34,825 bases of DNA from Turneriella parva. GTDB taxonomy: Bacteria; Spirochaetota; Leptospiria; Turneriellales; Turneriellaceae. Each line of letters begins with the position of its first letter. Position 1 is the first letter of the stretch. Both the position numbers and the translations under genes were made by a program. Below are positions 4,390 to 32,100 of this stretch, in pieces. The notes under the pieces were generated by a model. The model had not been told where the DNA came from and searched no databases. It saw nothing but the letters and a program-made list of their open reading frames with translations. The stretch is from NCBI GenBank assembly GCA_020719945.1, contig DYPL01000024.1, positions 1 to 34,825 on the forward strand, written 5' to 3'.

Positions 4390-4725
4390 ATGGAATCCGG
4401 AACCCAGGTGTCCCGCACCCGCGTAGAGCTAATGGGGCACCAGTACACTCTCAAGGGCGATCTCGATCCCGAGTACATGAAGTCTCTGGCCACCTATGTG
4501 GACGAGAAAATTCGCAATCTGCAAAAGCTGATGCCGGGCTTTGACAGCACGCGCCTTGCTTTACTCGTAAGCCTCAATATGGCAGATGAGCTTTTTCAGG
4601 CGAAAGCCGGTAGAAATGCTTTGCCCGACGGTGTGGACGAAAAAACACTGAGGGAGCTTGGCGAAAAAACGCAAAAAATGATTGAACTTCTCGAAGAAGG
4701 CATTATCGGAGAACCGCTTCGTTAA
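4390..4725 (+). CDS. zapA: Cell division protein ZapA
   Basis: This 111-residue protein matches ZapA, the small cytoplasmic protein that cross-links FtsZ protofilaments at mid-cell. The N-terminal globular part carries the pattern VELMGHQYTLKGDLDPEYMKSLATYVDEKI, characteristic of the family. It is followed by LALLVSLNMADELFQ and a C-terminal helix (about residues 80-105) for coiled-coil tetramerisation. The length is normal. The start lies one base after the stop of the acidic coiled-coil gene, so the two must be co-transcribed and are likely translationally coupled. The gene is convergent with the large SprA-like gene, with only 43 bp between stops and no convincing terminator there. Confidence 0.88.
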   Translation: MESGTQVSRTRVELMGHQYTLKGDLDPEYMKSLATYVDEKIRNLQKLMPGFDSTRLALLVSLNMADELFQAKAGRNALPDGVDEKTLRELGEKTQKMIELLEEGIIGEPLR

Positions 4726-4768: not shown

Positions 4769-7700
4769 CTAAAAAAGAATTCTAGCGCCCAGTCCTATTT
4801 CCAGACCCAGTATTTCCTGTTCCGTATTTTTGGTGTGCACGTCCCGGTGTATATCCCAAAGCGTAAGAACGTTAAAGTTGCCCGTCACATTCTGATGTAA
4901 ATTTATGTCCAGAGTCTGGTTGACTGCATAGCGATCCAGTGTCGTTGGAGTCGTGATAGTTTCGTCCCTTGCATATTCAATCCGATTGAGATCCGCAGAA
5001 ATTTTGGCCGAGTAGCGCGGCTTGTAGGTTAAATTGAGTTTGGTGAGCTCGGCAAGATATACCCGCAGCGATTCCATTTCTGTCGTATATTCCAGTGCCG
5101 TCTGCGCGCCGTGTTCCGTTTTTCCGATGAGTGCCCCGCGCTCTGGAATTGCCTGGTACAGAATTTTATCTGCCTCTGGCCCGTCTGGAGAAAGATATTC
5201 TTCTTCTGTATACTGCGATAATCGATAATTCAATAACAGCGATAGAGTGCGTCGTTCTGATTTTTTGGTATTCCAAGTAAATGTAAGCGTTAGTCCAGGC
5301 GTATGAGCATCTTCGCGAAGATTTTCTGTGATTCTCATTTTGCGGTCAAAGGTATAGCGAAGCTCCGACGTGAAGGAACGCCCACCCAGATTTTCGAGAA
5401 ACGGCATGTCGATCAGTTTCATTAAGTCCATCGTTTCGCGCACCGTATAGGCCAGCAAAACCTGTTGCTGCGGGAGAGCCGTAAGGGAAGAGCGGCGCGC
5501 CTCTTGGGCAAGACGAAAATCCGTAATGATAAATATTTCCTTAGGCAATTGAAATTTGGAGGGAAAAGCGACAGAATCTCTCTGGCTTAAAGAGTTGGAA
5601 TATTCCAGGAGCAATGCTTCGCTGTCTGCCGGCAGCACGGGACGATACTTTGTCGTTCTTACATATTCCCTTGCATTGGAAAAATTATTCTCTTTTCGGT
5701 TTTGCGAAACAAAGCCATACCAGAAGGGATAGCTGAACAGATCCATGCTGCGCACGGAAAGAGGAGGAACCACGCGCCGGAATCCCAGCTCATCTTCGAG
5801 AAGCTCGCGGCCCCTGGTATAGGGTAGTGAATTTTCTGCGAGCGTTATTTCCCGTTCAAAGCGCGGAACGAACGAAGAGAAAAATTTCAGCATATTGTGG
5901 ATGGCGGGAGGCTTAACCGGTATGGACAGAGAAATTAATGTTTGCGTGGAAGGCTGTTTTAAGCGTTGGTAAGATTCTTCCTCAAAAGAGATTGGATTGT
6001 CTCGAAAGGAATTTTCCTGGTAGAGAATGCTGGCCTCTGTTTCCATGGAGAGAGCCTTAAATCGCAGCGAGTTTTTTAACGATGCGTCTGTAATTCTCTG
6101 CCGGTATCGAAAGTTTCCGGGGCGCGTATACGGCAGAGTAAATTCTCCGTGCAGTGGCTGAAGGATATTGCTGTCTGTCAGTTTTTTTTCCAGAAGCATT
6201 TTTCTGGAATGGCGAATAGAGGGCGTCATGCTGAAAAAGGAATTTTCAAGTGTGAGCGAGTTTTCGGAATCTTCGGATTGTTCTTTTTCGCTGTCCGAAG
6301 ATACCAGGCTGTTAGAATCGTCTATGTTTACCGACTCCATCCGTTTGTGAAAATAGCGCAGAGAAGAGCGGAACTGGTAAATGAGTTTGGCATTGCCTAT
6401 AATTTTTTTCTCTTCTTTCAACGCTACGGACGGTGAGTGTATTTTCTGTTCTTCGATTGTTTCGAGTCTATCACTATCTTCTATGCCGGTCTTGAGAAAA
6501 TCGCGATAGTTTCTCGATATGGATTGATAATTATACTGTGTCGAAACATCCGGAATTCCGGTTTGCTCAAACTGAAAATCATTTTTCACAGAATGGTTGA
6601 GTTCTGTTCGTGAACCCCGCTTATCCGACGAAACGAGAATGCTCTCTGGATCTGCCATGGTGTACAGAGCATTGAAGGAATATGCTGATTTCCACCAGGG
6701 AGTAATGTTGGTGTTAGCCGTGAAAAAAGAATGATCTTCTGAATAGTGATACCGCGAGGTCCCGATTCCGGAAAAATCTTTTCCTCTGTGCTTTTGCTGG
6801 TAGTGCAGAACAATATCCGATAAAATGGGAGTTCCCGATTTGGTTGTGTAGAGGGGTTCTGTAATTTTTACTGTGCTGCGGAACAGCCACGCATCGTCCG
6901 TGAGCAGCGACACATCAGAGACAGTTATGTCGTTAAACCAGATTTCGCCCGAGCCGAGAGTTGTATCATCTCCCATCCCGATTTGAACGAGAGAGATTTC
7001 CTGCAGATTGGGCCGACCCATGGCAGCACTCGGTCTTTTGAGATCAAACGAAAGGTTTGTCCAGCTGTTTCCTGGCAGAGAAGTTTCAAATTCAAAATAA
7101 TTCGATTCATCCGAACCAATCCGTAGAAATACTTTTTCCGACCCGCTGTGGCTGCGCGTTCTGCTCCATATGTGCATTTTTCCATATTGTTCCAGATTCA
7201 TGGGATCGGGGAATACGCGCGAAATAAAATATCTGGTATATGAACTTTGGAAATCGTAAGTCACTTTGAGTGTAGCTTCGCGCAGTCTGTCATATTCTGT
7301 GTTGGTATATTTTCCGTGCAGTTTTTCGTAATCGTCTCTTTTCTGTTTAATAAACGCTTCCGAGTAATATTCGTCGCGCGAGTTAAAATTATCCATGATG
7401 AGAGCAGAGAAATATTCCGGATCCGTAATTTCGGCAGAATCGCCCGATGGCGTTATGGCCCGCGCGGAGCGCCACCGTGGTGATCCAAATTTGATTCCGT
7501 CTATCAGAAGTTTCCCTTTGCCGCTGCCACTGTCTGGCGTTATAAAAAGGCGCAGCGAGTAAACGGATGAGAGAGCCTGTTTCTGGCTGTTGGTGAGTTT
7601 GTTGCGATCGATCAAAAAGCGGAAATGTTTCCATTCACCGGGGCTGATAGTATTGTCTCCGGAATGATCTGCGATAAAGGCAGTCGTTCCATCAGGAATT

Positions 7701-10678
7701 CGCACCGTATTTTCGCCGGTCGAAAGAATTCCATCCCGGATGGTATCTTCCGTGTTTAACACGCCATTGCCGTCTGTGGCGGGATACCCGCTTATGGATG
7801 GTCCGGCTCCGACGGTTGTCGTAACCGTGCAGGATGGTGGATTAAAAAGATACCCAATATCTTCTGTTTTTCCGGAATCTCGCTCGGTAGACAACAGATA
7901 ATCTCCCTCGTGCGGATCGCTGGCTCCGTCCGCTACATGATTGAATCCAAGATCCTCCGTATCGAGAATTCCGTCTCCGTCGCTGTCTTCCGAGATGGTT
8001 CCCGTTTCCAGAAAAATATTAATTATTTGTGCTGCGGTCGCGTCTGTCAGTTTCGCATTAAATTCTACATAAGCTACCTGAGAAAAATCTCTCGCAGCGC
8101 TGCCAAAGGTTCTCGTTGCAATCGCGGCAAAGGGTTCTGCTCCCGCACTGTCGAAATCATAGTCGAGAACCAGCGAAACCTGTTTTTCTGCTTGGTCTGT
8201 TTTTAACTGCGAAGAATCGAGATGTCCTTCTGCCACATTGTACGGTCCCGGCATTGCAGCATAGGAAGGAGATGCTTTGGGGACGGAAGAAAGCGAGAGC
8301 AGGCCTATGCGTGGGTCTGCCGGATCGCGGTAATACTTATAGAGAAGAGGCGCACGGCTGCAGGCATCGTAGGGGGCCGTGGTCGCTTGGTTTAGCGGTG
8401 GCGAACTCAAGATCCAGTCTCGTTCAGAAATGGGAGCTTCGATGGAATCTTCTGAAGATTCAAAATCGTCTACCAGAGCAACGCCGTATGTATTCTGGTT
8501 GTGTATGCTGCGCGCGGCTTCGGCATACGTGTCTACGTCTACGGCAAGATGTTCGATTTCTCCAAGCGAAAGCATGCCGGCAAGGGCAGACATTTTGTCT
8601 TCCCCATAATGCAGATGCATGTCTGCCTCTGTCACGAGCTGGCTGGCGGGTTCTTCTCCCGGGCGAGGAGCAGAGAAGGGCGAGAACTGTCCGTTATAGA
8701 GCAGCGTGCTCCCTAAAGTGAGCTCTCGCGATGCCTTATACTCCGTGCGTAGCCCGCCAATATATCCCTGGCCAGAAATTCCATACGGAGAATATTCATA
8801 AGAAATTTCAACTTTTGTACCATTTCCGACAAGTGGTTTATCTGGATTTATAAAGGTAAAATATCCAGAATAATAATCTACATAATACAGAGAAGAATCT
8901 ACGGGTTCATTGTCCACGCGAACGCGCACACTGCCTCGCAGAATGTTGGGGTGTCGCAAACGATACGATTGAACTTTTTGCGTGTATTCCAAGCGAAGCT
9001 GCAGAGCCGTGAAATCTGCTGCGCCGGCAGGTGGCTTGTCTGAATACAGGTTGTACCGCGCGGAATCCGAAATATAAAAGGCTCCATTAGTATCCGTTAC
9101 ATTGAGAAATGGTTCGCGCAGAAAAAAGAAAATTCGCCCGGTTTCGTAATCGATAGAATATGTCCCGAGAGAAGAGAGCCCCGCAGCTTGGTTGTAAGCG
9201 CGGTCGAGCAGGCTCATCTGGAAATCGGCTTCGTCTATCTGGCTGTCGTCGGTTTCGTAAATGCCTCGAATTTCGTAAATATCAAGGTTGGGTGAGGCGT
9301 CGTCTATTACGGTTATATCATCGTTTCCTGTAGAAATTCCATTGCGCAATATGTCTTCCTGTAGAGAGCTGTCCCATTTTAGAAAGGTTTCTATTATGCC
9401 TGATCCATCCTGCCATGCCGTGGTGTCGCAGGTAGAAGCAGATGACGTTCTTGTGTAGCGCACAAACACTCTGTCTTCGGGAGATAAAAACGATGGAAAA
9501 ACAATGCGCCCACTTTCGGGATAAAATACATAATCTTTCCCCGAAGTCATTTTGTGGTATTTGCCGAGAGAATCGGATAATGTCCGGGCAGAAATCTGGG
9601 AGAGTACTTTGGCTCCATTAGTATCGTCATTGCGCGCATTGCGATCGTCCAAGTAAATTTCAAGACTTCCGTCTACTATGGATACTGCCGTGCCGGTAAG
9701 GGGTACGCTTCCCGAATAGCGGGAAGACAGCGTCCGAAGGGCAGAAGGACTCGTCCTATTGTAGGAGGCAGAGCTGACAGAAGGAAGGCAACCGTCGCCA
9801 TAATAGAGAAATGGTTCAAGCTGGTAATATTTGCGCGGAGTGTATCGGTACTCCTGGACATGGGAAGTCGTTCTTTTGGTCATCCCCGTAAAGGTCTCTG
9901 TTTCGGATTCCCCCCGCGTGAGCGTGGCAATTCCGTGAAAGGATAGTTTTCCCCGCTGCATTTTCGAGTCGAGACCAATCGTTTTTTTGGAATTTTTTTG
10001 AAACACGGCAAATTCAGATTCTGGTATGGATAAATCAATATTTCCAATGGTCACTTCTCGAACAAACTCCCGCCGTCGGATTGCTTTGTATTGAACCTGT
10101 ACCGTGTTCTCTGTCTGTTTTTCGTTGCGGTCGTAATCTATATCTACAGTAATGCGCTTTCCAATTTTTCCTTTTACGTTTACCTGCATGGGCATTTGCA
10201 CTTGGAAGCCGCGCCGTATTCCGGAAGATTTTGCAATGGAGTAATCATCGGTTCGGTCTTTTTCGGATCGGTAGGCTGTGGCTCCATACGTGGCATTGAT
10301 GTTCGTATTGCCGTAAATCACGAGCTTCACCGCGCCATAATCAAATCCTATTCCTTGGTTTTCCGGAACGCCTTCGGCCTGCTCCACATTGTCCCAGCGC
10401 TCATAAAAAAAATAGCCATCCGCATTGTAGCGATGGTTCGGCTGCATGGATCGCGACCAGGTAATTCGCTCCGCAGAGGAGGCAGGAGAAAGAGCAGGTT
10501 CGGAGAGAAGATTTTGCGTTCGGCTTTGTTGCAGGTATTCCGCATAATGCACTTCGTCATCTTCTTGCGATTCCTGTGCCTGCAAAAAAACCGCGCGAAA
10601 AGAGGCGGCTAAAAAAATTATGCCAAAAAGAAAAATAGCAGGAGCATAAAAAGGGAGCGTGCGTTGCTCAAGCTTCAT
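4769..10678 (-). CDS. SprA/Sov-like giant outer-membrane protein (type IX translocon homologue)
   Basis: The 1969-residue protein opens with a signal peptide (hydrophobic core about 9-33, likely cleavage after LQA). It resembles SprA (Sov in Porphyromonas), the roughly 36-strand outer-membrane barrel through which the type IX secretion system of Bacteroidetes exports proteins. Supporting signs are IGNIDLSIPESEFAVFQKN and a following KMQRGKLSFHGIATLTRGES, matching the SprA pattern of a GD.-LPLPNSEF segment then a GKL-..A..S-.RG segment; two YSIDYETGRIFF / YYVDYYSGYFTF units like SprA_N repeats; VDDFESSEDSI at 736-746 followed by W-LSSPPL, as in the SprA DDFEGS region; Asp-rich calcium-site-like loops DSDGDGILDTEDLG from 898; and a long C-terminal half of alternating amphipathic strands ending in Phe (barrel signal). 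SprA itself is about 2400 residues. No other type IX genes are in the window. The start overlaps the STAS gene by 11 bp. Confidence 0.75.
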   Translation of the reverse strand: MKLEQRTLPFYAPAIFLFGIIFLAASFRAVFLQAQESQEDDEVHYAEYLQQSRTQNLLSEPALSPASSAERITWSRSMQPNHRYNADGYFFYERWDNVEQAEGVPENQGIGFDYGAVKLVIYGNTNINATYGATAYRSEKDRTDDYSIAKSSGIRRGFQVQMPMQVNVKGKIGKRITVDIDYDRNEKQTENTVQVQYKAIRRREFVREVTIGNIDLSIPESEFAVFQKNSKKTIGLDSKMQRGKLSFHGIATLTRGESETETFTGMTKRTTSHVQEYRYTPRKYYQLEPFLYYGDGCLPSVSSASYNRTSPSALRTLSSRYSGSVPLTGTAVSIVDGSLEIYLDDRNARNDDTNGAKVLSQISARTLSDSLGKYHKMTSGKDYVFYPESGRIVFPSFLSPEDRVFVRYTRTSSASTCDTTAWQDGSGIIETFLKWDSSLQEDILRNGISTGNDDITVIDDASPNLDIYEIRGIYETDDSQIDEADFQMSLLDRAYNQAAGLSSLGTYSIDYETGRIFFFLREPFLNVTDTNGAFYISDSARYNLYSDKPPAGAADFTALQLRLEYTQKVQSYRLRHPNILRGSVRVRVDNEPVDSSLYYVDYYSGYFTFINPDKPLVGNGTKVEISYEYSPYGISGQGYIGGLRTEYKASRELTLGSTLLYNGQFSPFSAPRPGEEPASQLVTEADMHLHYGEDKMSALAGMLSLGEIEHLAVDVDTYAEAARSIHNQNTYGVALVDDFESSEDSIEAPISERDWILSSPPLNQATTAPYDACSRAPLLYKYYRDPADPRIGLLSLSSVPKASPSYAAMPGPYNVAEGHLDSSQLKTDQAEKQVSLVLDYDFDSAGAEPFAAIATRTFGSAARDFSQVAYVEFNAKLTDATAAQIINIFLETGTISEDSDGDGILDTEDLGFNHVADGASDPHEGDYLLSTERDSGKTEDIGYLFNPPSCTVTTTVGAGPSISGYPATDGNGVLNTEDTIRDGILSTGENTVRIPDGTTAFIADHSGDNTISPGEWKHFRFLIDRNKLTNSQKQALSSVYSLRLFITPDSGSGKGKLLIDGIKFGSPRWRSARAITPSGDSAEITDPEYFSALIMDNFNSRDEYYSEAFIKQKRDDYEKLHGKYTNTEYDRLREATLKVTYDFQSSYTRYFISRVFPDPMNLEQYGKMHIWSRTRSHSGSEKVFLRIGSDESNYFEFETSLPGNSWTNLSFDLKRPSAAMGRPNLQEISLVQIGMGDDTTLGSGEIWFNDITVSDVSLLTDDAWLFRSTVKITEPLYTTKSGTPILSDIVLHYQQKHRGKDFSGIGTSRYHYSEDHSFFTANTNITPWWKSAYSFNALYTMADPESILVSSDKRGSRTELNHSVKNDFQFEQTGIPDVSTQYNYQSISRNYRDFLKTGIEDSDRLETIEEQKIHSPSVALKEEKKIIGNAKLIYQFRSSLRYFHKRMESVNIDDSNSLVSSDSEKEQSEDSENSLTLENSFFSMTPSIRHSRKMLLEKKLTDSNILQPLHGEFTLPYTRPGNFRYRQRITDASLKNSLRFKALSMETEASILYQENSFRDNPISFEEESYQRLKQPSTQTLISLSIPVKPPAIHNMLKFFSSFVPRFEREITLAENSLPYTRGRELLEDELGFRRVVPPLSVRSMDLFSYPFWYGFVSQNRKENNFSNAREYVRTTKYRPVLPADSEALLLEYSNSLSQRDSVAFPSKFQLPKEIFIITDFRLAQEARRSSLTALPQQQVLLAYTVRETMDLMKLIDMPFLENLGGRSFTSELRYTFDRKMRITENLREDAHTPGLTLTFTWNTKKSERRTLSLLLNYRLSQYTEEEYLSPDGPEADKILYQAIPERGALIGKTEHGAQTALEYTTEMESLRVYLAELTKLNLTYKPRYSAKISADLNRIEYARDETITTPTTLDRYAVNQTLDINLHQNVTGNFNVLTLWDIHRDVHTKNTEQEILGLEIGLGARILF

Positions 10679-11015
10679 TCTCCACCGGATATTTGTCTCT
10701 GAGTTCTCCCGGAGTCAGAATATGGAAAAAATTGTTGAGTCCGGCTATTTTGAATATTTTTTCGATCATGGGTACCAGCCCGGACAGAAATAGAGCCATA
10801 TTTTTTCCGTTGAGTTCGTTGACCAGTTTAATAAGAGTGCCAATGCCGGAGGAATCGATATAGGTAACGAGAGCAAGATCCAGAATCACTATGAAGCCAG
10901 GGCCGGGTTGCATGTTGTCAATGGCATGTTTTAGATCCAGCGATGTATACATGTCCAGTGAGCCATCCAGTGACAGAACGGCATACGAGTCTGTTTTTTG
11001 ATTTCGAATTTTCAT
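10668..11015 (-). CDS. STAS-domain anti-sigma-factor antagonist
   Basis: The 115-residue product (start chosen at MKIRNQKTDSY) is a single STAS domain of the SpoIIAA/RsbV type. Such proteins free a sigma factor or other target by binding an anti-sigma kinase. The expected features are present: VLSLDGSLDMYTSLDLKHAI at the N-terminal side, a VILDLALVTYIDSSGIG core with Ser55 in the DSSG motif as the probable phosphorylation site, and a C-terminal FKIAGLNNFFHI helix region. Longer starts exist (ATG at 11027, GTG at 11111), but GGAAG lies 5 bp before the ATG at 11015 and the shorter form fits the family length. Its stop overlaps the start of the SprA-like gene, so the two form one operon. No partner kinase or sigma factor is nearby. 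Regulation of the large membrane protein is inference. Confidence 0.82.
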   Translation of the reverse strand: MKIRNQKTDSYAVLSLDGSLDMYTSLDLKHAIDNMQPGPGFIVILDLALVTYIDSSGIGTLIKLVNELNGKNMALFLSGLVPMIEKIFKIAGLNNFFHILTPGELRDKYPVENEA

Positions 11016-11159
11016 AGACTCTTCCATTTTCTGTTCTGCCCTGCCTTTGGCAACAATTTTTAGGTAAGGGCGAATTAAAACGCGCTTGTTCGCTTTAATC
11101 CAGAAAAACACTCAATGAAAGAGCAAAGCAGCCGATGATGGGAGCATCGGGAGACTACA

Positions 11160-11729
11160 ATGAAGAATATTTTCACCCAAATAGCTGTTTCACTTATCCT
11201 TATCTTTCCTCTCGCAGCACAAGAAAAAAATATGCTGGAGGAGGAAATTGCAGATCTGCACGTACAGCTAAATACTCTGGTAACGGATTACATAGAAACC
11301 CGCGATGGAGTAAGTAAAGACGGCACGCTCAAGCTGCCTCTCGATATGGGACTTCGCAACCGGATTGAAGATCCACAACCATTCACCTTCAAAGAAGAGG
11401 CAATCCTCAAAGTGAGCGGAAAAGCCATCACCGGCATCGAGTTTTATTTTACAAAGACAATCATTGCCAATTTAATGATACAGACGCGTCGTTATGTCAA
11501 CGAAGCACCCGGTGGAAGCACAGACGGTATCAAAATCATCTACGAATCCAACATGGATGAGGGCACAGAAATCAAGATCGCAGATCTTGGAAATTCCTTG
11601 AAGCATGTCTCCATGCGCCAGTACCGGGACTATCTCACGCAGACAGTTCGAGTGTTACAACTTGCACGAGAGTACCGGGAAGAAGACCAGAGACTCGAAG
11701 TTAATAAAGTCATATTTCTGAATGAATAA
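11160..11729 (+). CDS. Small exported protein of unknown function
   Basis: I do not recognise a family. The 189-residue product has a good signal peptide (MKNIFTQIAVSLILIFPLAA, cleavage likely before QEKN). A short heptad-like helix (LEEEIADLHVQLNTLVTDYIE) follows, then a strand-rich centre around LKVSGKAITGIEFYFTKTIIANLMIQTRRYV, and a charged C-terminal helix. A GGGAG sequence 6 bp before the ATG makes the start secure. The pattern of a short coiled segment plus a small beta domain is common among periplasmic or surface-exposed spirochaete proteins. The stop overlaps the start of the HAD pseudogene (ATGAATAA), so the two were once translationally coupled. Confidence 0.7.
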   Translation: MKNIFTQIAVSLILIFPLAAQEKNMLEEEIADLHVQLNTLVTDYIETRDGVSKDGTLKLPLDMGLRNRIEDPQPFTFKEEAILKVSGKAITGIEFYFTKTIIANLMIQTRRYVNEAPGGSTDGIKIIYESNMDEGTEIKIADLGNSLKHVSMRQYRDYLTQTVRVLQLAREYREEDQRLEVNKVIFLNE

Positions 11730-11999: not shown

Positions 12000-12287
12000 T
12001 TAGCGTTCCATATCCGATGTTTCTCCGAGTCTGTTTAATTGCTCCTCAAATGTTTCCGGCTTTTCAACCGGTATGCAGTCGGAATGCGGGTAATGTTCTT
12101 TTTTCTGCATAAAGTATTTGGCCCAGCCACGGTAATCAAAGCGACCATCTTCTGAAATCAAAGAATCTTCCAGATAGTGCTTTCCTTTACTCGTAAGTCC
12201 GCGCTGGGGGTCGCACGGATCTACGGGGATATTTTTCCCGCAGGCAGCCAGCAACATAAGGACAGTAAACAGCAGCAGGGGCCTCAT
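12000..12287 (-). CDS. Small predicted lipoprotein
   Basis: The 95-residue product has a typical lipoprotein signal (MRPLLLFTVLMLLAAC) with a lipobox ending at Cys16, so it is probably membrane anchored and periplasmic or surface exposed. The mature part is short and hydrophilic with two further cysteines (in VDPCDPQRG and HSDCIPVEK) that could pair. I do not recognise a domain. A run of GGGGGA lies about 3 bp before the start, supporting it. It is divergent from purH across 62 bp and convergent with the HAD remnant. Confidence 0.68.
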   Translation of the reverse strand: MRPLLLFTVLMLLAACGKNIPVDPCDPQRGLTSKGKHYLEDSLISEDGRFDYRGWAKYFMQKKEHYPHSDCIPVEKPETFEEQLNRLGETSDMER

Positions 12288-15332: not shown

Positions 15333-16358
15333 TTAAAAGCGGTGCTTTTGAACTGTCTCTACCATGGCGCTCACTGCTTCGAGATTTGCTTGAGGAGAAA
15401 TTCCATGGCCAAGATTGAATATAAGACCCGGTTTGTTTCCTCTAAGGGAAAGAATGTCCTTTACGCCTTTCACGACAGCCTCTACACTTCCTTCGAGAAA
15501 CGCTGGATCCAGATTACCCTGAACGGGCCGGTCGCCAAAATAATCGATATCCATGCGCCAGTCTACCGAAACGGCCGAAGCTCCTGCCTCATACAGGGGA
15601 AGAAGTGTTTCGCGCAGAATGGAAGAACCCCGATGGAATACAGTCACGGGTACTGCTTTGGAAACTTTGCTGACCAGTTTTACGAGGGATGGTAAAATAT
15701 GTTCGCGGTAGACTAACGGGTGCATGGCATCGCCCCAGGATTCAAAAATTTGAACTACGTCTGCTCCAGCAGCATGCTGCATTTCGAGATACATGGCAGT
15801 AGCGTCCGTGATAGCGTCGAGCAGGGAGGCAAATTCCTGCGGCTGCGAAAACATATAAGCACGCGTTTTATTGTGCGTTTTCGATGTGGTTCCCTCTACG
15901 AGATAACTCGCAAGAGTAAAGGGTGCGGCTGCAAAACCAAAAAGACTTTTATTTGGAGAAAGATTCTTTCTTGTGAGCGAAAGGGACTCCCGAAAAAAAG
16001 AAAGTCTTTCTGCAATGGTTTCCATCGAAATTCTGCTGCGCAAAGAGTCAATGGAGCGCTGTCCTTCGTAGCGAAAGTCGATCGAGGGGGGGCCATCTTC
16101 AAAGGAAACCTGAATGCCAAGTCCGGTCAGCAAAGTCATTATATCCGCAAAGATGATGGCTGCGTCGAGATTGAATCGTTCTATGGGCTGCAGGGTAATC
16201 TCCGCAGCAATTTCCGGATTTTCTGTCATTTGCAGAAAAGACAAGGACTCTCTCACTTTTCTGTATTCCGGGAGATATCGTCCTGCCTGTCTCATAAACC
16301 AGATGGGTACGCGTTCTGTATTTTGGGCTTTCAGGGTTTGGTGCAGTAGAGTTGTCAT
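15333..16358 (-). CDS. hemE: Uroporphyrinogen III decarboxylase
   Basis: The 341-residue protein matches HemE, the cytoplasmic enzyme that decarboxylates the four acetate side chains of uroporphyrinogen III to give coproporphyrinogen III. The family signature PIWFMRQAGRYLPEYR (residues 18-33, with Arg23 and Arg27) and the catalytic Asp72 in IIFADIMTLL are present, as are GFAAAPFTLASYLVEG and the C-terminal FNLGHGI block. The reading frame extends upstream to 16388, but the ATG at 16358, one base after the response-regulator stop and with AGGA just upstream, gives the family N-terminus and is preferred. It is the last gene of the heme operon in this window. No hemN or hemG follows; the next gene is convergent. 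Confidence 0.95.
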   Translation of the reverse strand: MTTLLHQTLKAQNTERVPIWFMRQAGRYLPEYRKVRESLSFLQMTENPEIAAEITLQPIERFNLDAAIIFADIMTLLTGLGIQVSFEDGPPSIDFRYEGQRSIDSLRSRISMETIAERLSFFRESLSLTRKNLSPNKSLFGFAAAPFTLASYLVEGTTSKTHNKTRAYMFSQPQEFASLLDAITDATAMYLEMQHAAGADVVQIFESWGDAMHPLVYREHILPSLVKLVSKVSKAVPVTVFHRGSSILRETLLPLYEAGASAVSVDWRMDIDYFGDRPVQGNLDPAFLEGSVEAVVKGVKDILSLRGNKPGLIFNLGHGISPQANLEAVSAMVETVQKHRF

Positions 16359-16359
16359 G

Positions 16360-17067
16360 TTAGAATCCTGGATTTTTTTTATAAGCATAGCCTTTTTTGG
16401 GAAATGTTAAAAAAAGCTCGGGGGTTGTCTGGTCCTCTTCAAATATTTTTCGAAATTTGACGAGAAAGTTGTCAATGTTTCTCCCGGAAACAAAAACATC
16501 CGAACCCCATATATGCTCAATGAGTTCATTGCGCGAAATAATTCTGTCCGGGTTTTGAACAAAGTAGAGGAGGGCCTGTGCTTCTTTGGGGGAAAGTGAG
16601 TAAATATCGCCTCCGCTTTTTACCTGCATCAGATTCCAGTTAATTTCTCCAATACCAATTTTGCCAGGCAGGGGTGAATGTCCTCTTGGTACAAAGTGAT
16701 ACAAAAGATTTTGTATTTTGCTGAGAAGTAAATCCATTTCAAAGGGTTTCACTATATAATCAATAGCACCCAGTTTATAGGCTTCTGCAATTTTTGTTTG
16801 CGCTCCGAGGGCAGAGATAAACAGAATGGGAACAGGATTGTGGGATTTTTTTATTTTCTCGGCAAATTGAAGTCCACTTTCGCCGGGCAACATAATATCG
16901 AGTAACAGGAGGTCGTATTTTCGGGGCTGGAATACTTTCTCGAACTGCTCAATGGAAAAAAATGAGTCCACCGCAAAACCAGAGTCGTGCAGATTATATT
17001 CCAGAAGTTCGCGAATGGAATCATCGTCTTCTACCAGTGCCAGATTTGCATTAATATTTTCACTCAT
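16360..17067 (-). CDS. OmpR/PhoB-family response regulator in the heme operon (Rrlep-like)
   Basis: The 235-residue product has an N-terminal receiver domain with acidic pocket Glu13-Asp14-Asp15, phospho-acceptor Asp57 in LLLLDIMLPGESG, and the conserved Lys in DYIVKPFE. The C-terminal winged-helix DNA-binding domain includes LSPKEAQALLYFVQNPDRIISRNELIEHIWG and FLVKFRKIFEEDQTTPELFLTFPKKGYAYK. It lies 4 bp after the histidine kinase gene and 1 bp before hemE, so it is co-transcribed with both. From memory, Leptospira heme loci carry a two-component pair called Hklep/Rrlep that controls heme biosynthesis genes. The position here fits that role, making autoregulation of the operon likely but not shown. 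Confidence 0.92.
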   Translation of the reverse strand: MSENINANLALVEDDDSIRELLEYNLHDSGFAVDSFFSIEQFEKVFQPRKYDLLLLDIMLPGESGLQFAEKIKKSHNPVPILFISALGAQTKIAEAYKLGAIDYIVKPFEMDLLLSKIQNLLYHFVPRGHSPLPGKIGIGEINWNLMQVKSGGDIYSLSPKEAQALLYFVQNPDRIISRNELIEHIWGSDVFVSGRNIDNFLVKFRKIFEEDQTTPELFLTFPKKGYAYKKNPGF

Positions 17068-17071
17068 GTAA

Positions 17072-18169
17072 TTACCTCAGGGTTAGGCTAAATGTGCTTC
17101 CCTTTTGTTCTCCGTCGCTTTCAATGTCCAGTTTTAATCCTAACAGCGAAACAAGGCGCATTACGGTAAATAAACCCAGGCCGGTTCCCTTTGTATTTTG
17201 AACTTGGTGGCGCGAAGAGCGGAAAAACATCATTCCGATTTTCTTTATTTCTTCCGGAGTAAAGCCAATCCCGCTGTCCTTCACTTCAATGACAGCATTT
17301 TTTTTATTTGCCACCAAATTTACTTCTATTTTGTCTTCAGAGTATATCAGAGCATTTTTGATTAAATTGGTCAAAATGGTTTGCAGTCCTTGCCGATTGC
17401 AGGTGCAGAAATCCAGGGCCTCTGGAATCCGGCTGGTGAAAACGATTCTCTCGTTGCCATCTTCGCGGGTAGATTTCATGTAATCTGCAACGGAGAGTAC
17501 AAAGCCCGATACGGAGTAGCTTGAAGTTTCCTTGCGCGAAAAGATGGTGAGTTCCTGCACCTTGAGAATATTTTCAAGCTGAATTTTTACCGTCTGGATT
17601 TCCGAGATTCCTTTTTGTATAAACTCATTGCGGCGGTTTTCCGGAATTGTTTGCCTTTTTAAACTCTCCAGCATCAGGGATATGCGTGCTAAAGGATGCT
17701 TTAGTTCATGGGTTGCCATGGCCAGGAATTCTTCGCGCTCCGTGTTCAGTCTCTTTTCGCGCAGGATAAGATAAATCATATAAAATCCGGCAGTTCCGAG
17801 TACTGAAATTAAAAATATGGTTTCGGAAAAAATCATATTCATTCGGCGATTGCGTTCGTTAACGATCGCGTTATAGAATTGCGGGGAGATTTGAATTTTT
17901 TCTCCAGGCTGCCTTAAAGAGTCAAAGCAGGGAATCAGTTCGCAGCTTACTGAATATATCACTTTACCACTGCTGAGTAAACCGGGCAGTATTTCCGGGT
18001 TGGTTGTTTGGGACAAAAAGATTTGTCGTTCCAAAAGGAGGAACTCCGCCTGTAAAAACGAATTGAGAGTTCGTGAAAAAACGACAAGCCACCAGAGCGT
18101 CATCAATATCACTGAAAAAAAAATCAGTGACAGGGCAATAGGGATTCCGGTGGCAAAGCTTCTCCGCAT
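17072..18169 (-). CDS. Membrane sensor histidine kinase in the heme operon (Hklep-like)
   Basis: The 365-residue protein has two membrane segments (about residues 10-32 and 115-136) enclosing a small extracytoplasmic sensor loop of about 80 residues with Cys76 and Cys81. The kinase core is complete: H-box ATHELKHPLARIS with phospho-accepting His154, N-box LTNLIKNALIY (Asn268/Asn272), G1 box DSGIG at 298-302, F-box around MMFFRSS, and G2 box GTGLGL at 328-333. It starts 2 bp after hemL and ends 4 bp before the response regulator gene, so the pair is part of the heme operon. The sensed signal is unknown. The two cysteines in the sensor loop could sense redox or bind heme/metal, which is speculation. 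Confidence 0.92.
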   Translation of the reverse strand: MRRSFATGIPIALSLIFFSVILMTLWWLVVFSRTLNSFLQAEFLLLERQIFLSQTTNPEILPGLLSSGKVIYSVSCELIPCFDSLRQPGEKIQISPQFYNAIVNERNRRMNMIFSETIFLISVLGTAGFYMIYLILREKRLNTEREEFLAMATHELKHPLARISLMLESLKRQTIPENRRNEFIQKGISEIQTVKIQLENILKVQELTIFSRKETSSYSVSGFVLSVADYMKSTREDGNERIVFTSRIPEALDFCTCNRQGLQTILTNLIKNALIYSEDKIEVNLVANKKNAVIEVKDSGIGFTPEEIKKIGMMFFRSSRHQVQNTKGTGLGLFTVMRLVSLLGLKLDIESDGEQKGSTFSLTLR

Positions 18170-18171
18170 GC

Positions 18172-19524
18172 TTAGGCTTCCGGAGTCTCCATTTCCTGTA
18201 AGGTTGGTGATTTGCGGATTGCGGCAGCAAGCTTCTGCAGAAACAGATCTATATCTCTGGTTTCCATGGCAACCGATAGAAATCCTACTTCGTAAGCAGA
18301 GGGAGCAAGGTAAACTCCATCGTTCAGCAGGGCTTTAAACAAGTGCCTGTAAATGAGAGCAGATTTGTTCCAGATTCTATCGACGCGTCGCACTGGTTCG
18401 TAGGCTCCAGTTACGTGGAAGTTGAACCAGAAGAGGGAATCTTCCTGTACCAGAGTCATATCGTAATCTTTTCCTTCGAGAGCAGATGGAATCAGTTTGT
18501 TGAATTCCTTTCCGAGGTATTTTGCGAGATCCGACAATTTGTCGTATCCGTTTTTTTCCAGCATGGTATTCAGAGTGGCCAGGCCGGCAGCCATGGCCAG
18601 CGGATTTCCGGAAAGCGTACCCGCCTGGTATACCGGTCCCGCCGGGGCCAGATGATTCATGACTTCGCGGCTTCCTCCAACGGCTCCAACCGGTAGACCA
18701 CCGCCAATTATTTTGCCATATGTTACAATGTCTGGTGTAACGCCATATTTACCGGCAAAGCCGGAAATCCCAAGGCGAAAGCCGGAAATAACTTCGTCGA
18801 GAATCAAAAGTGCTCCATGCCGAATAGTAATATCGCGCACCAGTTTAAGAAATTCATCGCGCTGTTTAAGCAAACCGGCATTGGCTGGCAGAGGTTCAAT
18901 AATTACGGCAGCGATTTTGTCTCCGTAGAGTTCAAAGATTTTTTGAAAAGATGGCTCGTCATCGAGAGGAACGGTGAGCGTAGTCTTTGCCGTCTCGGCG
19001 GGAATGCCAGGCGAAGAAGCAACCGAAATATCTCCCGAAGCGGTGAGAAGCCCGGAACCTGCGTTTACGAGCATCCCGTCACTATGGCCATGGTAGCAGC
19101 CATCAAATTTTACAATCAGGTCTCTTCCTGTAATTCCCCTTGCCAGGCGTAGAGCCGTCATAACTGCTTCGGTGCCGCTGTTGACAAAGCGGATTCGTTC
19201 AATGTGGGGCACATGTTTTAGAATGAATTCTCCCAATTTTATTTCCTGTATCGAAACCGCCCCGTAAGAAGTACCCAGCTCGCTTTGTTCTTTGAGTGCT
19301 TTCAATACTTTTTTGTTTCCGTGGCCAAGAACAAGGGGGCCCCATGAATTGACAAAATCCAAGTAGGTATTCTCATCCGTGTCGGTTAAATAGGCGCCTT
19401 GGGCAGAGGCAATTACGACGGGATCTCCGCCAACAGAGCGGAATGCTCTGACCGGAGAGTTTACTCCACCCGGAAAAACTTCAAGAGCTCTCTTCCACAT
19501 TTTAATAGATTCTTTGTGTTTCAT
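18172..19524 (-). CDS. hemL: Glutamate-1-semialdehyde 2,1-aminomutase
   Basis: The 450-residue product matches HemL, which converts glutamate-1-semialdehyde to 5-aminolevulinate, the second step of the C5 heme route. It shows FPGGVNSPVRAF at the N-terminus, RFVNSGTEAVMTALRLAR for PLP phosphate binding, ILDEVISGFRL with the PLP-ring Asp, and Lys271 in VTYGKIIGGGLPVGA as the Schiff-base lysine. Two ATGs are possible. The one at 19524 overlaps the hemCD stop as ATGA and has GGAGG 5 bp upstream, so it is preferred over 19536. Length and motifs are typical. The next gene, the histidine kinase, begins 2 bp after the stop. Confidence 0.96.
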   Translation of the reverse strand: MKHKESIKMWKRALEVFPGGVNSPVRAFRSVGGDPVVIASAQGAYLTDTDENTYLDFVNSWGPLVLGHGNKKVLKALKEQSELGTSYGAVSIQEIKLGEFILKHVPHIERIRFVNSGTEAVMTALRLARGITGRDLIVKFDGCYHGHSDGMLVNAGSGLLTASGDISVASSPGIPAETAKTTLTVPLDDEPSFQKIFELYGDKIAAVIIEPLPANAGLLKQRDEFLKLVRDITIRHGALLILDEVISGFRLGISGFAGKYGVTPDIVTYGKIIGGGLPVGAVGGSREVMNHLAPAGPVYQAGTLSGNPLAMAAGLATLNTMLEKNGYDKLSDLAKYLGKEFNKLIPSALEGKDYDMTLVQEDSLFWFNFHVTGAYEPVRRVDRIWNKSALIYRHLFKALLNDGVYLAPSAYEVGFLSVAMETRDIDLFLQKLAAAIRKSPTLQEMETPEA

Positions 19525-21281
19525 GGTATCCTCCACTGGATTGCTGAAAATGGACGAAGATCTTCCCGTCCCTGAATTGATTTTATTAACTGAACAAAAG
19601 ACTTTCCGCCTGAGACAATATACGGCTGTATTCCAGAACCAAGCAGGGATAACGCAGTTGTTTCGCCCATGGCAGCTATTCTGTGCTGCGGATTTTGGAA
19701 GTGGCTGGCATAGTGACTGACTGCCGATGGCGAACTGAAAATCCAGAGGAAATCCTGATCCTGCGGTATGCTGACAGATTCTGAAGGAACATTTTTATAG
19801 GGGAAAAGAGTCTGCACCCGAACCCCCTGTGCGCGCAATAGTTCGTAGCCCTCTGTTATTCCGTTCTCTGCGGTAATCCATAGAACATCTTCTATTTTCT
19901 GCTCTAAGACCGCCCGTGCGGCTGAAAGCGCGCCGGCACCATGCGGAGTGGTCACGTCCTGAAAATAGGCGCGGAGTCTGTGGGCACTGGAATCGCCCGC
20001 TGCAAAAACGGGAATTTCCGAGTCTGGTGCCTGAGACAAAAGATACTGAACGGCTTCTGGAGAAGTGGCTACAATCGCTGTTCCGGGTTTCAGAGCGGGC
20101 AGGGTAACCGGCAAAAACTCTGTTTTAATGAAAGGAATATATTGAACGGAACGACTGCAGTTTGTCTCCTCCATTGCCTTCTTGAACGATAGACTGCTTT
20201 TTCCGGTAAAAAGCAGGGGGTGATTGTCCTCGCCGCGCATTTCTGAAGAGAGCCAAAAAGAGCGCTCTGGAGTAAGGAAGCGCGTTGCTCTGAATTCTTT
20301 TCCTACCGCATCTGTTCCAGAAAAAAATGAGGGAGAATAAAATGCCTGTGTGCGGAACAGGCTTCCCGCTGTGGCATTTTCAATGGTAACTGTCTGAAGA
20401 GTTTGTTTGGCAAGCGGGAGGGAATACAGTCCCAATGGAACAGAACAGCCTGCACCGAGGGAAGACATAATTTCTCTTTCCATATTTGCCTTTTCCCGAA
20501 GAGTCTGGTTTTCCCGCAACGCCGAGAGAGGATAGTCGGCGCGGGTTTCCAGGCCCAGCACGCCTTGGTTTACTGCCGGTATGAGGACATCCGGAGAAAT
20601 GTCGTAAAAATGGAGATTTTTCTCGATAATAACCGAAAGCCGGACGTGATCCGCATCGAGGCGTTCCCGTAAGGTAGAAGCAAGTCTTTCGCCAAATTTT
20701 TCTTTTTGTGTCGGCCAGTTCTGGAAAAAGGCAAACAGACGCCGTATTCCAGCCGACGCAAGAAGAAGGCCATGGAACGAATCCGATGCCAGAAGTTTTT
20801 CAAAACGGGTGATAAGATTCCCCCGAACATTGACGAGCTCTACGTCCGGTGCGTATTGCTTTAGCTGAGCAGCACGGCGCAAACTGGAAGATCCTATCGT
20901 GGCGCCATTGAGCCAGTCCGCGAGGGAAGTCGGCTCTACGGGGGTTCGCGTAACGACCATATCGCCACTTACTTCCGGGGAAAACACGGAGTGGAGCATG
21001 AGACCGTGGGGCAGTTCCGTTGGCAGATCTTTCAGAGAGTGGACGGCAACATCGCCCGACGATTCGAGCAGCGCGGTTTCGAGTTCTTTGGTAAAGAAAG
21101 CTTTCCCTTCTTTGTCAACCCCGCTTTTCATATTGTACAGCGGGTCTTGCAGGTTAATATCTCCTAGGGTTTTGAGAGCGATAATTTCCCAGGGAATCTG
21201 CGCATGGTCAAGAATTTCTGCCGTGTGCAGTGTTTGAGCGAGAGCAAGAAAAGAATCACGGGAGACAATGCGGATTTTCAA
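19521..21281 (-). CDS. hemCD: Fused porphobilinogen deaminase / uroporphyrinogen III synthase
   Basis: The 586-residue protein joins two consecutive heme enzymes. Residues 1 to about 345 are HemC: SRDSFLALAQT, AVHSLKDLPTELP with catalytic Asp85, IGSSSLRRAAQL with substrate-binding arginines at 135-136, and Cys279 in SLGAGCSVPLG, which carries the dipyrromethane cofactor. A loop of about 30 extra residues (around 186-225) is present compared with E. coli HemC. Residues from about 355 to the end look like HemD, a poorly conserved family, recognised by IVATSPEAVQYLL, WITAENGITEGYELLRAQG and WIFSSPSAVSHY. From memory, a bifunctional HemC is known in Leptospira. The start is TTG at 21281 (TTGA overlap with the hemA stop), backed by AGGAGG 4 bp upstream. 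The hemL start overlaps the stop. Confidence 0.9.
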   Translation of the reverse strand: MKIRIVSRDSFLALAQTLHTAEILDHAQIPWEIIALKTLGDINLQDPLYNMKSGVDKEGKAFFTKELETALLESSGDVAVHSLKDLPTELPHGLMLHSVFSPEVSGDMVVTRTPVEPTSLADWLNGATIGSSSLRRAAQLKQYAPDVELVNVRGNLITRFEKLLASDSFHGLLLASAGIRRLFAFFQNWPTQKEKFGERLASTLRERLDADHVRLSVIIEKNLHFYDISPDVLIPAVNQGVLGLETRADYPLSALRENQTLREKANMEREIMSSLGAGCSVPLGLYSLPLAKQTLQTVTIENATAGSLFRTQAFYSPSFFSGTDAVGKEFRATRFLTPERSFWLSSEMRGEDNHPLLFTGKSSLSFKKAMEETNCSRSVQYIPFIKTEFLPVTLPALKPGTAIVATSPEAVQYLLSQAPDSEIPVFAAGDSSAHRLRAYFQDVTTPHGAGALSAARAVLEQKIEDVLWITAENGITEGYELLRAQGVRVQTLFPYKNVPSESVSIPQDQDFLWIFSSPSAVSHYASHFQNPQHRIAAMGETTALSLLGSGIQPYIVSGGKSFVQLIKSIQGREDLRPFSAIQWRIP

Positions 21282-22546
21282 GCTTCCTCCTGGGTATAGG
21301 TGAGCATTTCTATAAACAAATTTTTGTGAGCTTTAAGAGTTTTCTTCTCCTGCTTTCGGAAATGGTCGTATAAAATTCGCTGCTGTTTGGCAGAAATGTC
21401 GCGAAGGGGCCCTTTGAGTAATGCTTCCCATTCCTGTTTTCTCTCTTCTTCTACCCGGCGCAATGCTTCATTGACGAGATCCGGATTTTGCCTGTAAACG
21501 AGATCCATGGAGAGAGAATTGATGGCGCGGTCTACAAAGGGCAGTGCCTGTTTCAGATGATACTGTCGAATGGTCTTGTTATTGGCACTTACATTTTGGA
21601 GATCGTTGAGATTGATAATATGTTCTGAAGAATCATTCTGGGAGAGAGTTTCAATATTGGGTGGTAGTCCTAAATCGGCAAAGATGGCTCGAGGAGATAT
21701 TTTTCCGCTCTGCTTCCACTCAAGAATCTGTTCTTCCCGAAGCAGGGGTGTGTCCGAGGCAGTCGAAGTAATTAAAAGCTCATAATCGTGTTGGTCTTCC
21801 ACAAAAAAGTCTGACCAGTTGAGGTAGCGAATGGAGACGGAGGTTCCGTGGATTGCCTTATCCCAAGCTGGAGGCAGGGGGTTGGTTATGTCGTGCCTTA
21901 AAATCAGAATTTCCTGCGCTCCCTTGTTTAGCACAAATCGCAGCGCTTTTTGGGACATATCGCCGGTTCCGCCAATTACGGCTTTTTCAAGAACGAGCTG
22001 ATCCTGTTTCCAGCGGCTAAGGATAGCGCGTTCCATGAGAGACAGCAGAGAAATTGGATTGGAGCCAATATCTGTATGCGTGCGGATTGCTTTCTGCACT
22101 TCAAAAGTCTTTTGCAGTAATGTGCGAAAAAATGCCGAAAGATACAGTTTTTCTTCTGCAAGTGCCATCGCACGTTTTACCTGACCCGTGATCTGGGTTT
22201 CTCCTATGGCCATGCTTTTTAATCCGCTCGTCACTTGAAACAAATGGCGTATGGCAGCTGATCCCGATTTATGTACCGGTTCATGGCGGTGTACGCCCAG
22301 GTTGACAGGAGATTCCATCAGCAGTGCACGGATTTGTACCGAATCCTTGGGGGGCAGGCCTTTCAGTTCGAGATACAGTTCGGCACGATTGCAGGTAGAT
22401 ACATAGAAAACGGATTGAATGGCCTGGTCCCTCTGCCAGTCTACCGAATAGAATGTTTGCGAGTCCGGAAACGACTGCAAGGCCTGGAGATCGTGGTCTT
22501 CGTATGTCCAGCTTAAAAGGACAAATTGCCGAAAGAAAGAGAGCAT
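21278..22546 (-). CDS. hemA: Glutamyl-tRNA reductase
   Basis: The 422-residue product matches HemA of the C5 pathway, which reduces glutamyl-tRNA to glutamate-1-semialdehyde with NADPH. The active-site Cys52 lies in YVSTCNRAELY. GLKSMAIGETQITGQVKRA, FEVQKAIRTHTDIGSNPIS and the nucleotide-binding AVIGGTGDMSQKALRFV follow. The C-terminal dimerisation helix is present. The N-terminus is slightly divergent but the length is normal. It is the first gene of the operon hemA-hemCD-hemL-kinase-regulator-hemE. Its upstream gap (22547-22691) holds the repeats described separately. The weak AGGC-type ribosome site before the ATG leaves the start a little uncertain. Confidence 0.95.
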   Translation of the reverse strand: MLSFFRQFVLLSWTYEDHDLQALQSFPDSQTFYSVDWQRDQAIQSVFYVSTCNRAELYLELKGLPPKDSVQIRALLMESPVNLGVHRHEPVHKSGSAAIRHLFQVTSGLKSMAIGETQITGQVKRAMALAEEKLYLSAFFRTLLQKTFEVQKAIRTHTDIGSNPISLLSLMERAILSRWKQDQLVLEKAVIGGTGDMSQKALRFVLNKGAQEILILRHDITNPLPPAWDKAIHGTSVSIRYLNWSDFFVEDQHDYELLITSTASDTPLLREEQILEWKQSGKISPRAIFADLGLPPNIETLSQNDSSEHIINLNDLQNVSANNKTIRQYHLKQALPFVDRAINSLSMDLVYRQNPDLVNEALRRVEEERKQEWEALLKGPLRDISAKQQRILYDHFRKQEKKTLKAHKNLFIEMLTYTQEEA

Positions 22547-29004: not shown

Positions 29005-29158
29005 AGGACACTTTATATAGTTGTAATAGTCAATCAATAAAAAATGCTGGACTATTTGTCCTGAATTTTCCAGATATTGACTGACTGCGAACGTATATGT
29101 CAGCCTCTGTTTTGCGGAATACAGGCCGGTCATGTTCGTGCGCGCTAAGGGGATATTT

Positions 29159-32100
29159 GTGAAAAAGACAGTAACACTATTATTATTTATTTCTATTGCA
29201 ATAATCAATACAGCGTGCAGCCGCTGGCAGCACAATAAAGAAGCCAACTGCCTGAATCCCGCCTCCAACTGCTATGTGCCGGATGTGACCGCACCGGAGA
29301 TTACCGCCGTAGCCATCTATACAGATTCCACGTTGACTACTCCCGGTGCACCCGGCAGCACGGTGAGTACGCTGTATGCCATTGATATCACTTATTCTGA
29401 GGTAATGCTGAATGCAGATGATGCGGATCAGTTCAGGTTTACCGGGGGGGCGGGGGATTCCCAGTTGTCCATTTCCTCCATAGAGAAGCTTTCCTCCATC
29501 CAGTACAGATACCGCATCGCCGGGAAAGTGAGAAACGGCGCCATAAAACTGGAGACCAGTGCCACGGATGTTTCTAAAAAATCTTTGCAGGTGGTTGCCG
29601 GCCTGTACCCCGTTGAGTTTACCGGCAGCACCGATGTGTCTATTGGCATTGCATCCATAGAGAGCAATTACCTCACGGTGAACGTGAATACTTCTACCGA
29701 ATATAACGACATAGATATTGCGTGGAGCCACGATTATGTTCCCGACAATGCCACCAATGTAACGCGATACTGGGTGAACTTAAATGCGGCGTGTTCGTTT
29801 AGCAGCAGCGAAGCATCTAATTTAACGGAGACGACGCATGGAAGCAATTTCTCTGCTGCGGATCTCGCAGCCGCTGTTAGTGTAACGACCAATCTGAAAG
29901 CTTCGGTTTTGCCTGTAGGAAACAGTACGTTGTATATCTGCGTGGAAAATGTTACAGAGAACAAGCAGGGCTATGCGGCCATCCCGCTTGTCCGCGACGA
30001 TACGCTGCCCACCTCGCGGCTGACTCTGAATTCTCCGGGAACAGGTAATTACGCCAGCGTACAGAGCGTGGAAACAGAATGCACGGATCCCAATTGCTCC
30101 ATGATAGCGTATACCCAGAACTCCAGTGACCCCACCTTTTCGCTGGGAGCCATCACTAACGGAACACAGTATTTGGCGGCATGGAGTACACCATGGACCG
30201 TTGATCCCACTACAACCGTATTCAGATTCCGGGCGATGGACAGAGCCGGGAATGTGGAATCCAGCGTTCATGAATATACCTATACTATCGACACCCGCGT
30301 TCCCGTGGTCACGCTCACGTCGAATTTATCCCACCAGTATCTGAAAGCGGGGGTCACCACTTCGTTTTCTTTTAGTTCAAACTTAAATGGGAATCACAAG
30401 GTTCTGCTCGACGTGCCTTCCTGCCCGGCATCGGGGGATGGATCGTGGTCGGGTGCAACGAGCACGACCAAGAACACAGATTACAACTACAGCTTTACCG
30501 CCGATACAGCTTCTGCGGATTTCACCACGGAGGGCGTGCACACCATTCTGGTATGCGTAAAAGAGTCGGAAACGGGAATGAATTATGTGGGCACTTTGTC
30601 CCGCAGCGTTATGGTAGATTTTACCGTCCCCAAGGCCCAGGATGGCACGTCTGCCTTTGCCGGCATTGCCTCCGCCACGCCTATTGGAACGGATATTATC
30701 CTCACATGGACGGCGGCCACGGACGCTTCGCCGGTGTATTACGATATCTATGAATCCACATCGTCTCCGGTGGCTACGGCGGGAGCGGCCAGTTATTCCA
30801 CAGAACATGCAACGACCGCACAAAATTGTTCTGTCAATGACATTACCAAAGAGGTGTCTTGCACGCTTACGGGAAAAGATGCCAATACCGTATATTACTA
30901 CGTGGTGCGAGCGCGTGATAAGGCGGGCAATGCGGAAACGAATACGGTGGAAAAACAGGCGGGCTACACGGTAAAAATTGCACGGTTAGATTCCAATAAC
31001 AACACAGTACAGCTTGCACTAAAGACGGGAACCCCGCTTACACAAAGGGCAACGCTGGCAATAGCAACGCAGAGCACCAGTCCTTTTAATTACCGCCTAG
31101 ATTTAAACGAACCTTATTCCGTGGAGATTACCAGCCAGCCGCCGGGTCGCGTTTGTGCTATTAAAGAGAAGCAGTTTGGCACGGTGGATGGCGTCGTTAC
31201 GATGAACATGAATTGCAGTTTGGGATACATGGTGGGCGGCCGCTACCAACAGGTTCCGGCGGCACCGCTGAATATGATGCTCTACCGGGGGAAGGTGACG
31301 GATGTTGTTATATCCGGTGCCGTTGCCGGAATGACCTATCTCAATGGAAATTTGTATTTCATTAATGTTTATAATAGAATTTCAAAATGGGATGGTTCCA
31401 ATGTAACACACATAGCAGGGAATGATACTTCCACCAGAGCTGACGGAGCGTGTTCTGGAGTCACGAATCAAATCCATACAGCCTATTCTTTGACCACAGA
31501 TGGAACAAATCTCTACTTTACCGAAAACAGCTCTCCCCGCGCGATACGAAAAATTTCGGATCCGTCAACAAGCAGCTGCAAAATCACCACGTTATATACC
31601 AGTGACGATACGATGGATGCCGTGGAAGGGATTGTACACGATGGAATGGACGCGCTTTATCTCGCAAACCGATATTACAAGGGAGTGGTTAAATTCCAAC
31701 TTTCCACCGGCACAATGACGACAATCCAGCCAGCCTCTGCCTTTGTGGAACCCATGGATTTAACTCTGTTGAACAATAAGCTGTACGTTGCCAATTTTGG
31801 GGAGAACAATATTAAGGTGATTGACCTTGGCACGGGAAACATTGTTGAAACAATGGGAGCATACGGTTTCCAAGATGGTAGATTATCTGCCGCAAAATTC
31901 TATGGTCCCTACGGTATAACGACAGACGGAACAAATCTTTTTGTCTCGGAATATTACAACCAGACTGTAAGACGCATTAACCTGAAGAACAATACCGTTT
32001 CCACGATTGCAGGTGCTTCGGGTGTCGATGGAACAAATGGCACAACTGCAACAGGAGTGAATGCGCTGTTCAATAATGCAGTCCGGATTGTAGCCGACGG

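Follow-up and report, generated by a model that had tools for sequence, protein, structure and literature searches.

The window analysed here, a stretch of 34,825 nucleotides from Turneriella parva, encodes a true but divergent homologue of SprA/Sov of the type IX secretion system (T9SS), which has the same fold and belongs to the SprA superfamily. Considering this protein together with the genes found elsewhere in its genome and in related genomes, we regard it as probable that Spirochaetota use a type-IX-like export, in which a giant barrel of the SprA superfamily would serve as the translocon, with dedicated PorV-type carriers and a source of energy other than GldLM. In the publications consulted, T9SS is described as specific to Bacteroidota or to the Fibrobacteres-Chlorobi-Bacteroidetes (FCB) group. 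Full-text open-licence literature contained no report of SprA or T9SS in spirochaetes, although earlier notice elsewhere is possible.

A divergent SprA homologue with the SprA fold

The SprA-like gene (4769..10678, reverse strand) starts with ATG, is present in a single copy in its genome and encodes a protein of 1969 residues. Its first residues, about 1-34 (10577..10678, reverse strand), are hydrophobic and were assigned to a signal peptide from the sequence itself. The motifs named in the earlier note were all located in this open reading frame, with IPESEFAVF at residues 218-226, DYETGRIFF at 510-518 and VDDFESSED at 736-744. The note had also described DSDGDG loops in the plural; the motif is present, but in one exact copy only, at residues 898-903 (7970..7987, reverse strand), where it forms a calcium-site-like loop and an acidic block conserved in the family.

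Against the NCBIfam model TIGR04189, one of the checks proposed for the claim, the protein gave a significant match (E = 2.9e-37, 127.6 bits), though below the curated equivalog cut-off of 200 bits. Two segments match the model, an N-terminal one (9812..10264, reverse strand), aligned to model positions 112-258, and a core segment, residues 503-770 (8369..9172, reverse strand), which corresponds to positions 522-797 and includes VDDFESSED. All of the 21 aligned orthologues matched the model as well, the best of them with E = 1.8e-52. No spirochaete genome reached the equivalog cut-off. As the window protein falls short of it, we use the name "SprA-like". The other profile proposed, Pfam SprA_N, matched neither the window protein nor any of the 21 orthologues, and Pfam otherwise returned nothing notable.

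No SprA emerged when the PDB was searched by sequence, even with a profile of 21 sequences, and the immunoglobulin matches returned were rejected as chance. Among the PDB searches, SprA was found by fold comparison alone. AlphaFold models were obtained for residues 100-1290 (59 sequences, pLDDT 84.7, pTM 0.74) and for residues 780-1969 (54 sequences, pLDDT 85.1, pTM 0.62). For both parts, the top four matches were the T9SS SprA structures 8gl6, 8gl8, 6h3i and 6h3j, with E = 1.7e-45 and 2.5e-25, respectively, for 8gl6. The next matches, to carbohydrate-binding modules or TonB-dependent receptors, were unrelated and had E-values of about 1e-5 or weaker. The TM-scores to the query were moderate (0.59 and 0.45), since each model covers part of the protein and SprA is the larger protein, and identity in the fold alignments was 10-14%. 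The claimed homology to SprA/Sov is thus borne out by the TIGR04189 match and by the fold match to solved SprA.

A SprA barrel is expected to have more than 30 strands, and that of Flavobacterium johnsoniae has 36. The models of the window protein contain 40 strands of at least 10 residues in total, some of which do not belong to a barrel, and closure of the barrel is not readable from the split models. Of these, 24 follow residue 1280 and were assigned to the C-terminal part of the protein (residues 1287-1969; 4772..6820, reverse strand; pLDDT 85.1).

Distribution, descent and gene neighbourhood

Using a profile of 21 sequences, we identified relatives in 100 of the 393 sampled Spirochaetota genomes, representing 69 of 168 genera. 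A scan of public genomes returned 376 relatives, and those kept extend to Elusimicrobiota, Aerophobota and a small number of other groups. Within the class, the gene is restricted to the window's order, where it is carried by all four sampled families, though not by genus g3 of the window's own family. The description of the genome as Leptospira-type in the earlier note is accurate at the level of the class, but the gene was not present in either of the other two families sampled from the class. Very divergent SprA-like reading frames of 1571-1623 aa were also observed in three other spirochaete genomes (L184, L185 and L186), at a different conserved locus and beside barrel-like reading frames of 447-458 aa and larger.

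A quick tree was computed by maximum likelihood from 66 long sequences. In it, a fully supported branch separates the Spirochaetota from the remaining sequences, and the window's order forms a supported subgroup among them. Two differently named bins fell among the Spirochaetota, one of them in the window's genus, and were taken as mislabelled. The tree is consistent with vertical descent of the SprA-like gene in Spirochaetota, and the Spirochaetota clade argues for such descent over contamination. That a Bacteroidota contig had contaminated a metagenome bin was considered because the sampled genomes are mostly such bins, and in a related one (G160:C145, L163:2291-4816) a contig with a C-terminal sorting domain (CTD) does resemble Bacteroidota contamination. 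The window's gene, however, shares its 34.8-kb contig with zapA, purH and a haem cluster and is syntenic with many relatives, and its protein groups with Spirochaetota in the tree. We rejected contamination on synteny and tree, and hold it to be very improbable for the window. The CTD protein of G160:C145, a short contig, gave the best TIGR04183 score.

Directly upstream of the SprA-like gene and on the same strand is a gene for a STAS protein of the anti-sigma-factor-antagonist type (10668..11015, reverse strand), which scores 66.3 bits with TIGR00377, above the cut-off of 53.45 bits, and keeps the DSSG motif, as do 8 of 8 orthologues. Its reading frame spans 10668..11111, or 10668..11015 from an internal start that fits the orthologues of 110-113 aa, and shares 11 nt with the start of the SprA-like gene. 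This overlap is limited to the window's genus, the gaps elsewhere in the order being about 38-135 nt. Gene order was compared in 10 sampled genomes of the order, including the window's own, and in 8 of them the STAS gene immediately precedes SprA; in the f3 family of the order it is missing from this position, and the class's two other sampled families lack SprA. The zapA locus of 13 SprA-less relatives contained neither gene. STAS beside SprA was not found in the phylum beyond the window's order, and an M23 peptidase gene is often upstream of SprA there.

The STAS gene is thus kept in the order, is missing where SprA is missing from the locus and did not turn up in the rest of the phylum. This makes it a local partner: its linkage is real but confined to the order, and it is not a general partner of SprA. 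The overlap described in the earlier note is confirmed. The STAS gene may have a partner-switch role; no kinase partner adjoining it was identified. In another spirochaete lineage (L042, L043, L045, L047 and L049), a gene for a SpoIIE-type phosphatase lies two genes from SprA, in convergent orientation. The presence of such a phosphatase and of STAS near SprA may hint at partner switching, or may be a coincidence.

Downstream of the SprA-like gene and convergent to it is zapA (4390..4725, forward strand; PF05164, 1.7e-18, and synteny), a syntenic landmark that we do not count as a component of the system. A coiled-coil gene is likewise downstream and convergent. Beside the SprA-STAS locus, most of the order also has a small lipoprotein (12000-12287, reverse strand) and a signal-peptide protein of 189 aa with no function assigned (11160-11729, forward strand). 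Further along, the window contains hemA, a fused hemC-hemD (586 aa), a hemL-type aminotransferase, a histidine kinase, a response regulator and hemE (15333-22546, reverse strand), as well as a protein of 1853 aa with three Laminin_G_3 domains and a C-terminal DUF1554 (29132-34693, forward strand).

CTD proteins, PorV-family carriers and the motor

The earlier note had recorded no PorV and no CTD-type substrates, which is true within the window, but CTD-PorV pairs exist elsewhere in the genome. Proteins of the PorV/PorQ family were found in 31 of the 32 genomes searched, and matches to the T9SS CTD in 25 of them. Across these 32 genomes, 44 of 147 CTD matches are followed on the same strand, at a distance of less than 400 nt, by a PorV-family match, against 0.2 pairs expected by chance under a rough uniform model, and the reversed order did not occur. 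The positions of the two kinds of gene are therefore not independent. The ordered pairs are distributed over 17 of the 32 genomes, all of them SprA-positive.

Three such operons (A, B and C) were read in the window's own genome. Operon A combines a CTD protein of about 864-940 aa, which includes a Calx-beta domain, with a PorV-family protein of 516 aa, whose gene comes next with no gap between the two. Its CTD scores 25.4 bits with TIGR04183 (cut-off 23), making this the only own-genome pair above the cut-off, and its carrier matches the PorV/PorQ family NF033709 with E = 6.5e-17. In operon B, a protein of 116 aa consisting of a signal peptide and a CTD-like part precedes a PorV-like protein of 347 aa, with folP- and diadenylate-cyclase-like neighbours, named from gene order and sequence. 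Operon C encodes a CTD-like protein and then a fusion of a PorV-like barrel with a long TPR region. The gene at L148:4167-7715 (own genome, C87), for a PorV-like barrel with a TPR region of about 850 aa, is conserved throughout the order. PorV/PorQ matches in the own genome had E-values down to 1.8e-17, all of them below the family cut-off of 90 bits. The three carriers examined contain 0, 0 and 1 cysteines and thus have no SprF-like twin-cysteine tether.

The CTD model overlaps FlgD-type Ig domains. Single TIGR04183 matches in a genome were rejected as evidence, since they are also present in SprA-negative genomes, and we relied instead on ordered pairing and on multiple matches. Among genomes with at least two CTD matches, 36 of 42 were SprA-positive, compared with 64 of the 351 others (Fisher p = 2.5e-18, shared ancestry ignored). 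A strong B-type carrier was found in 54 genomes, 46 of them SprA-positive (p = 8e-24, shared ancestry ignored). Six g3 genomes, which have no SprA, have kept the B pair of a small Ig-like protein and a PorV-like partner; at the three loci read in g3, the small protein resembles a lipoprotein. The B pair can therefore exist without SprA, and a small CTD protein with a PorV-like partner was rejected as a perfect SprA marker. Several SprA-positive genomes (e.g. G112, G198, G117 and G170) had no CTD match.

The absence of GldL and GldM noted for the window was upheld more widely. The GldM model had no match anywhere (0 of 32 genomes), and the GldL model gave no credible match in 25 genomes, both sets being without a positive-control genome; two weak matches to it, at 24.3 and 22.5 bits (cut-off 68.3), were rejected as long or unrelated reading frames. 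The negative set includes genomes with more than 40 CTD matches. The PorU-type peptidase C25 was absent from the own genome and from 23 of 25 tested, the one clear match being in G047, whose bin shows 6% contamination.

Proposed export route and comparison with known systems

In F. johnsoniae, PorV blocks the lateral opening of SprA in the SprA-PorV-CTD complex, and the CTD binds the loops of PorV in the pore (PMC10994853). Type B cargo of Flavobacterium keep dedicated carriers (PMC12635249). By analogy with this complex and these carriers, and starting from the computed SprA homology and fold, the presence of CTD and PorV, their ordered pairing and the co-occurrence with SprA, we infer an export route through the SprA-like pore, including its docking step, its direction and its source of energy. 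The cargo would reach the periplasm by means of its signal peptide, and its C-terminal Ig-like domain, the CTD, would then enter the SprA pore. There, the PorV-family barrel whose gene directly follows that of the cargo would dock and take over the CTD, after which the carrier would depart with the cargo to the cell surface. Each cargo would tend towards a carrier of its own, rather than sharing one general PorV. A source of energy other than GldL/GldM is proposed because the canonical motor was not detected.

Counted against this export reading are the sub-cut-off SprA score, the SprA-positive genomes without a CTD match, the SprA-negative genomes with single CTD matches, the overlap with FlgD-type Ig domains and the B pair of g3. 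Some of these points would suit a SprA-derived barrel with another job, such as lipid, glycan or surface-lipoprotein traffic, next to a separate CTD-PorV system: SprA-positive genomes without CTD matches exist, SprA-less g3 retains a carrier pair, and the GldL/GldM models found no motor. We nevertheless consider this unlikely, as CTD-PorV pairs at the TIGR04183 level occurred solely in SprA-positive genomes among the 32 compared, SprA and multiple CTD matches co-occur strongly across the 393 genomes, and PorV and CTD are the exact partners of SprA in the solved complex (PMC10994853). The type IX system might instead be complete and ordinary, with a GldK-N motor and a PorU that have diverged beyond the reach of the models; this appears comparably improbable. 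In its favour, SprA, PorV and CTD also show divergence, scoring below or close to the cut-offs, and the GldM search, with no match anywhere, lacked a positive control; on the other side stand the missing GldM and GldL in genomes with more than 40 CTD matches and the near-general lack of a C25 peptidase.

A more tentative suggestion goes further. The SprA-based export machine may be older than the type IX system of Bacteroidota and common to Spirochaetota and probably Elusimicrobiota/Aerophobota, operating without GldLM and with one PorV-type carrier per cargo. If true, the presence of SprA and carrier-cargo pairs in a quarter of the sampled spirochaete genomes would widen the range of type IX secretion and make available a version without the known motor, in which it would be testable what SprA and its carriers do alone and how the motor was added.

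The window protein resembles SprA/Sov of the F. johnsoniae T9SS (6H3I, 6H3J, 8GL6 and 8GL8) in its length class, signal peptide, TIGR04189 core and overall predicted fold, and its genome contains PorV-family and CTD partners. It differs in being about 1970 aa long, compared with 2124-2290 modelled residues in solved SprA, in its sub-equivalog score, in its gene neighbourhood and in the low identity of the fold alignments. As with type B cargo of Flavobacterium (SprB-SprF/PorP type), a carrier is encoded beside each cargo; unlike in type B, the carriers here are of the PorV/PorQ family, the domain of the cargo fits the type A CTD model, and the three carriers examined of the own genome lack the twin-cysteine tether of SprF. 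These carriers match PorV/PorQ (NF033709), the main one being that of operon A, but differ from the usual members of the family in forming several paralogues, one of which is fused to the TPR region of about 850 aa.
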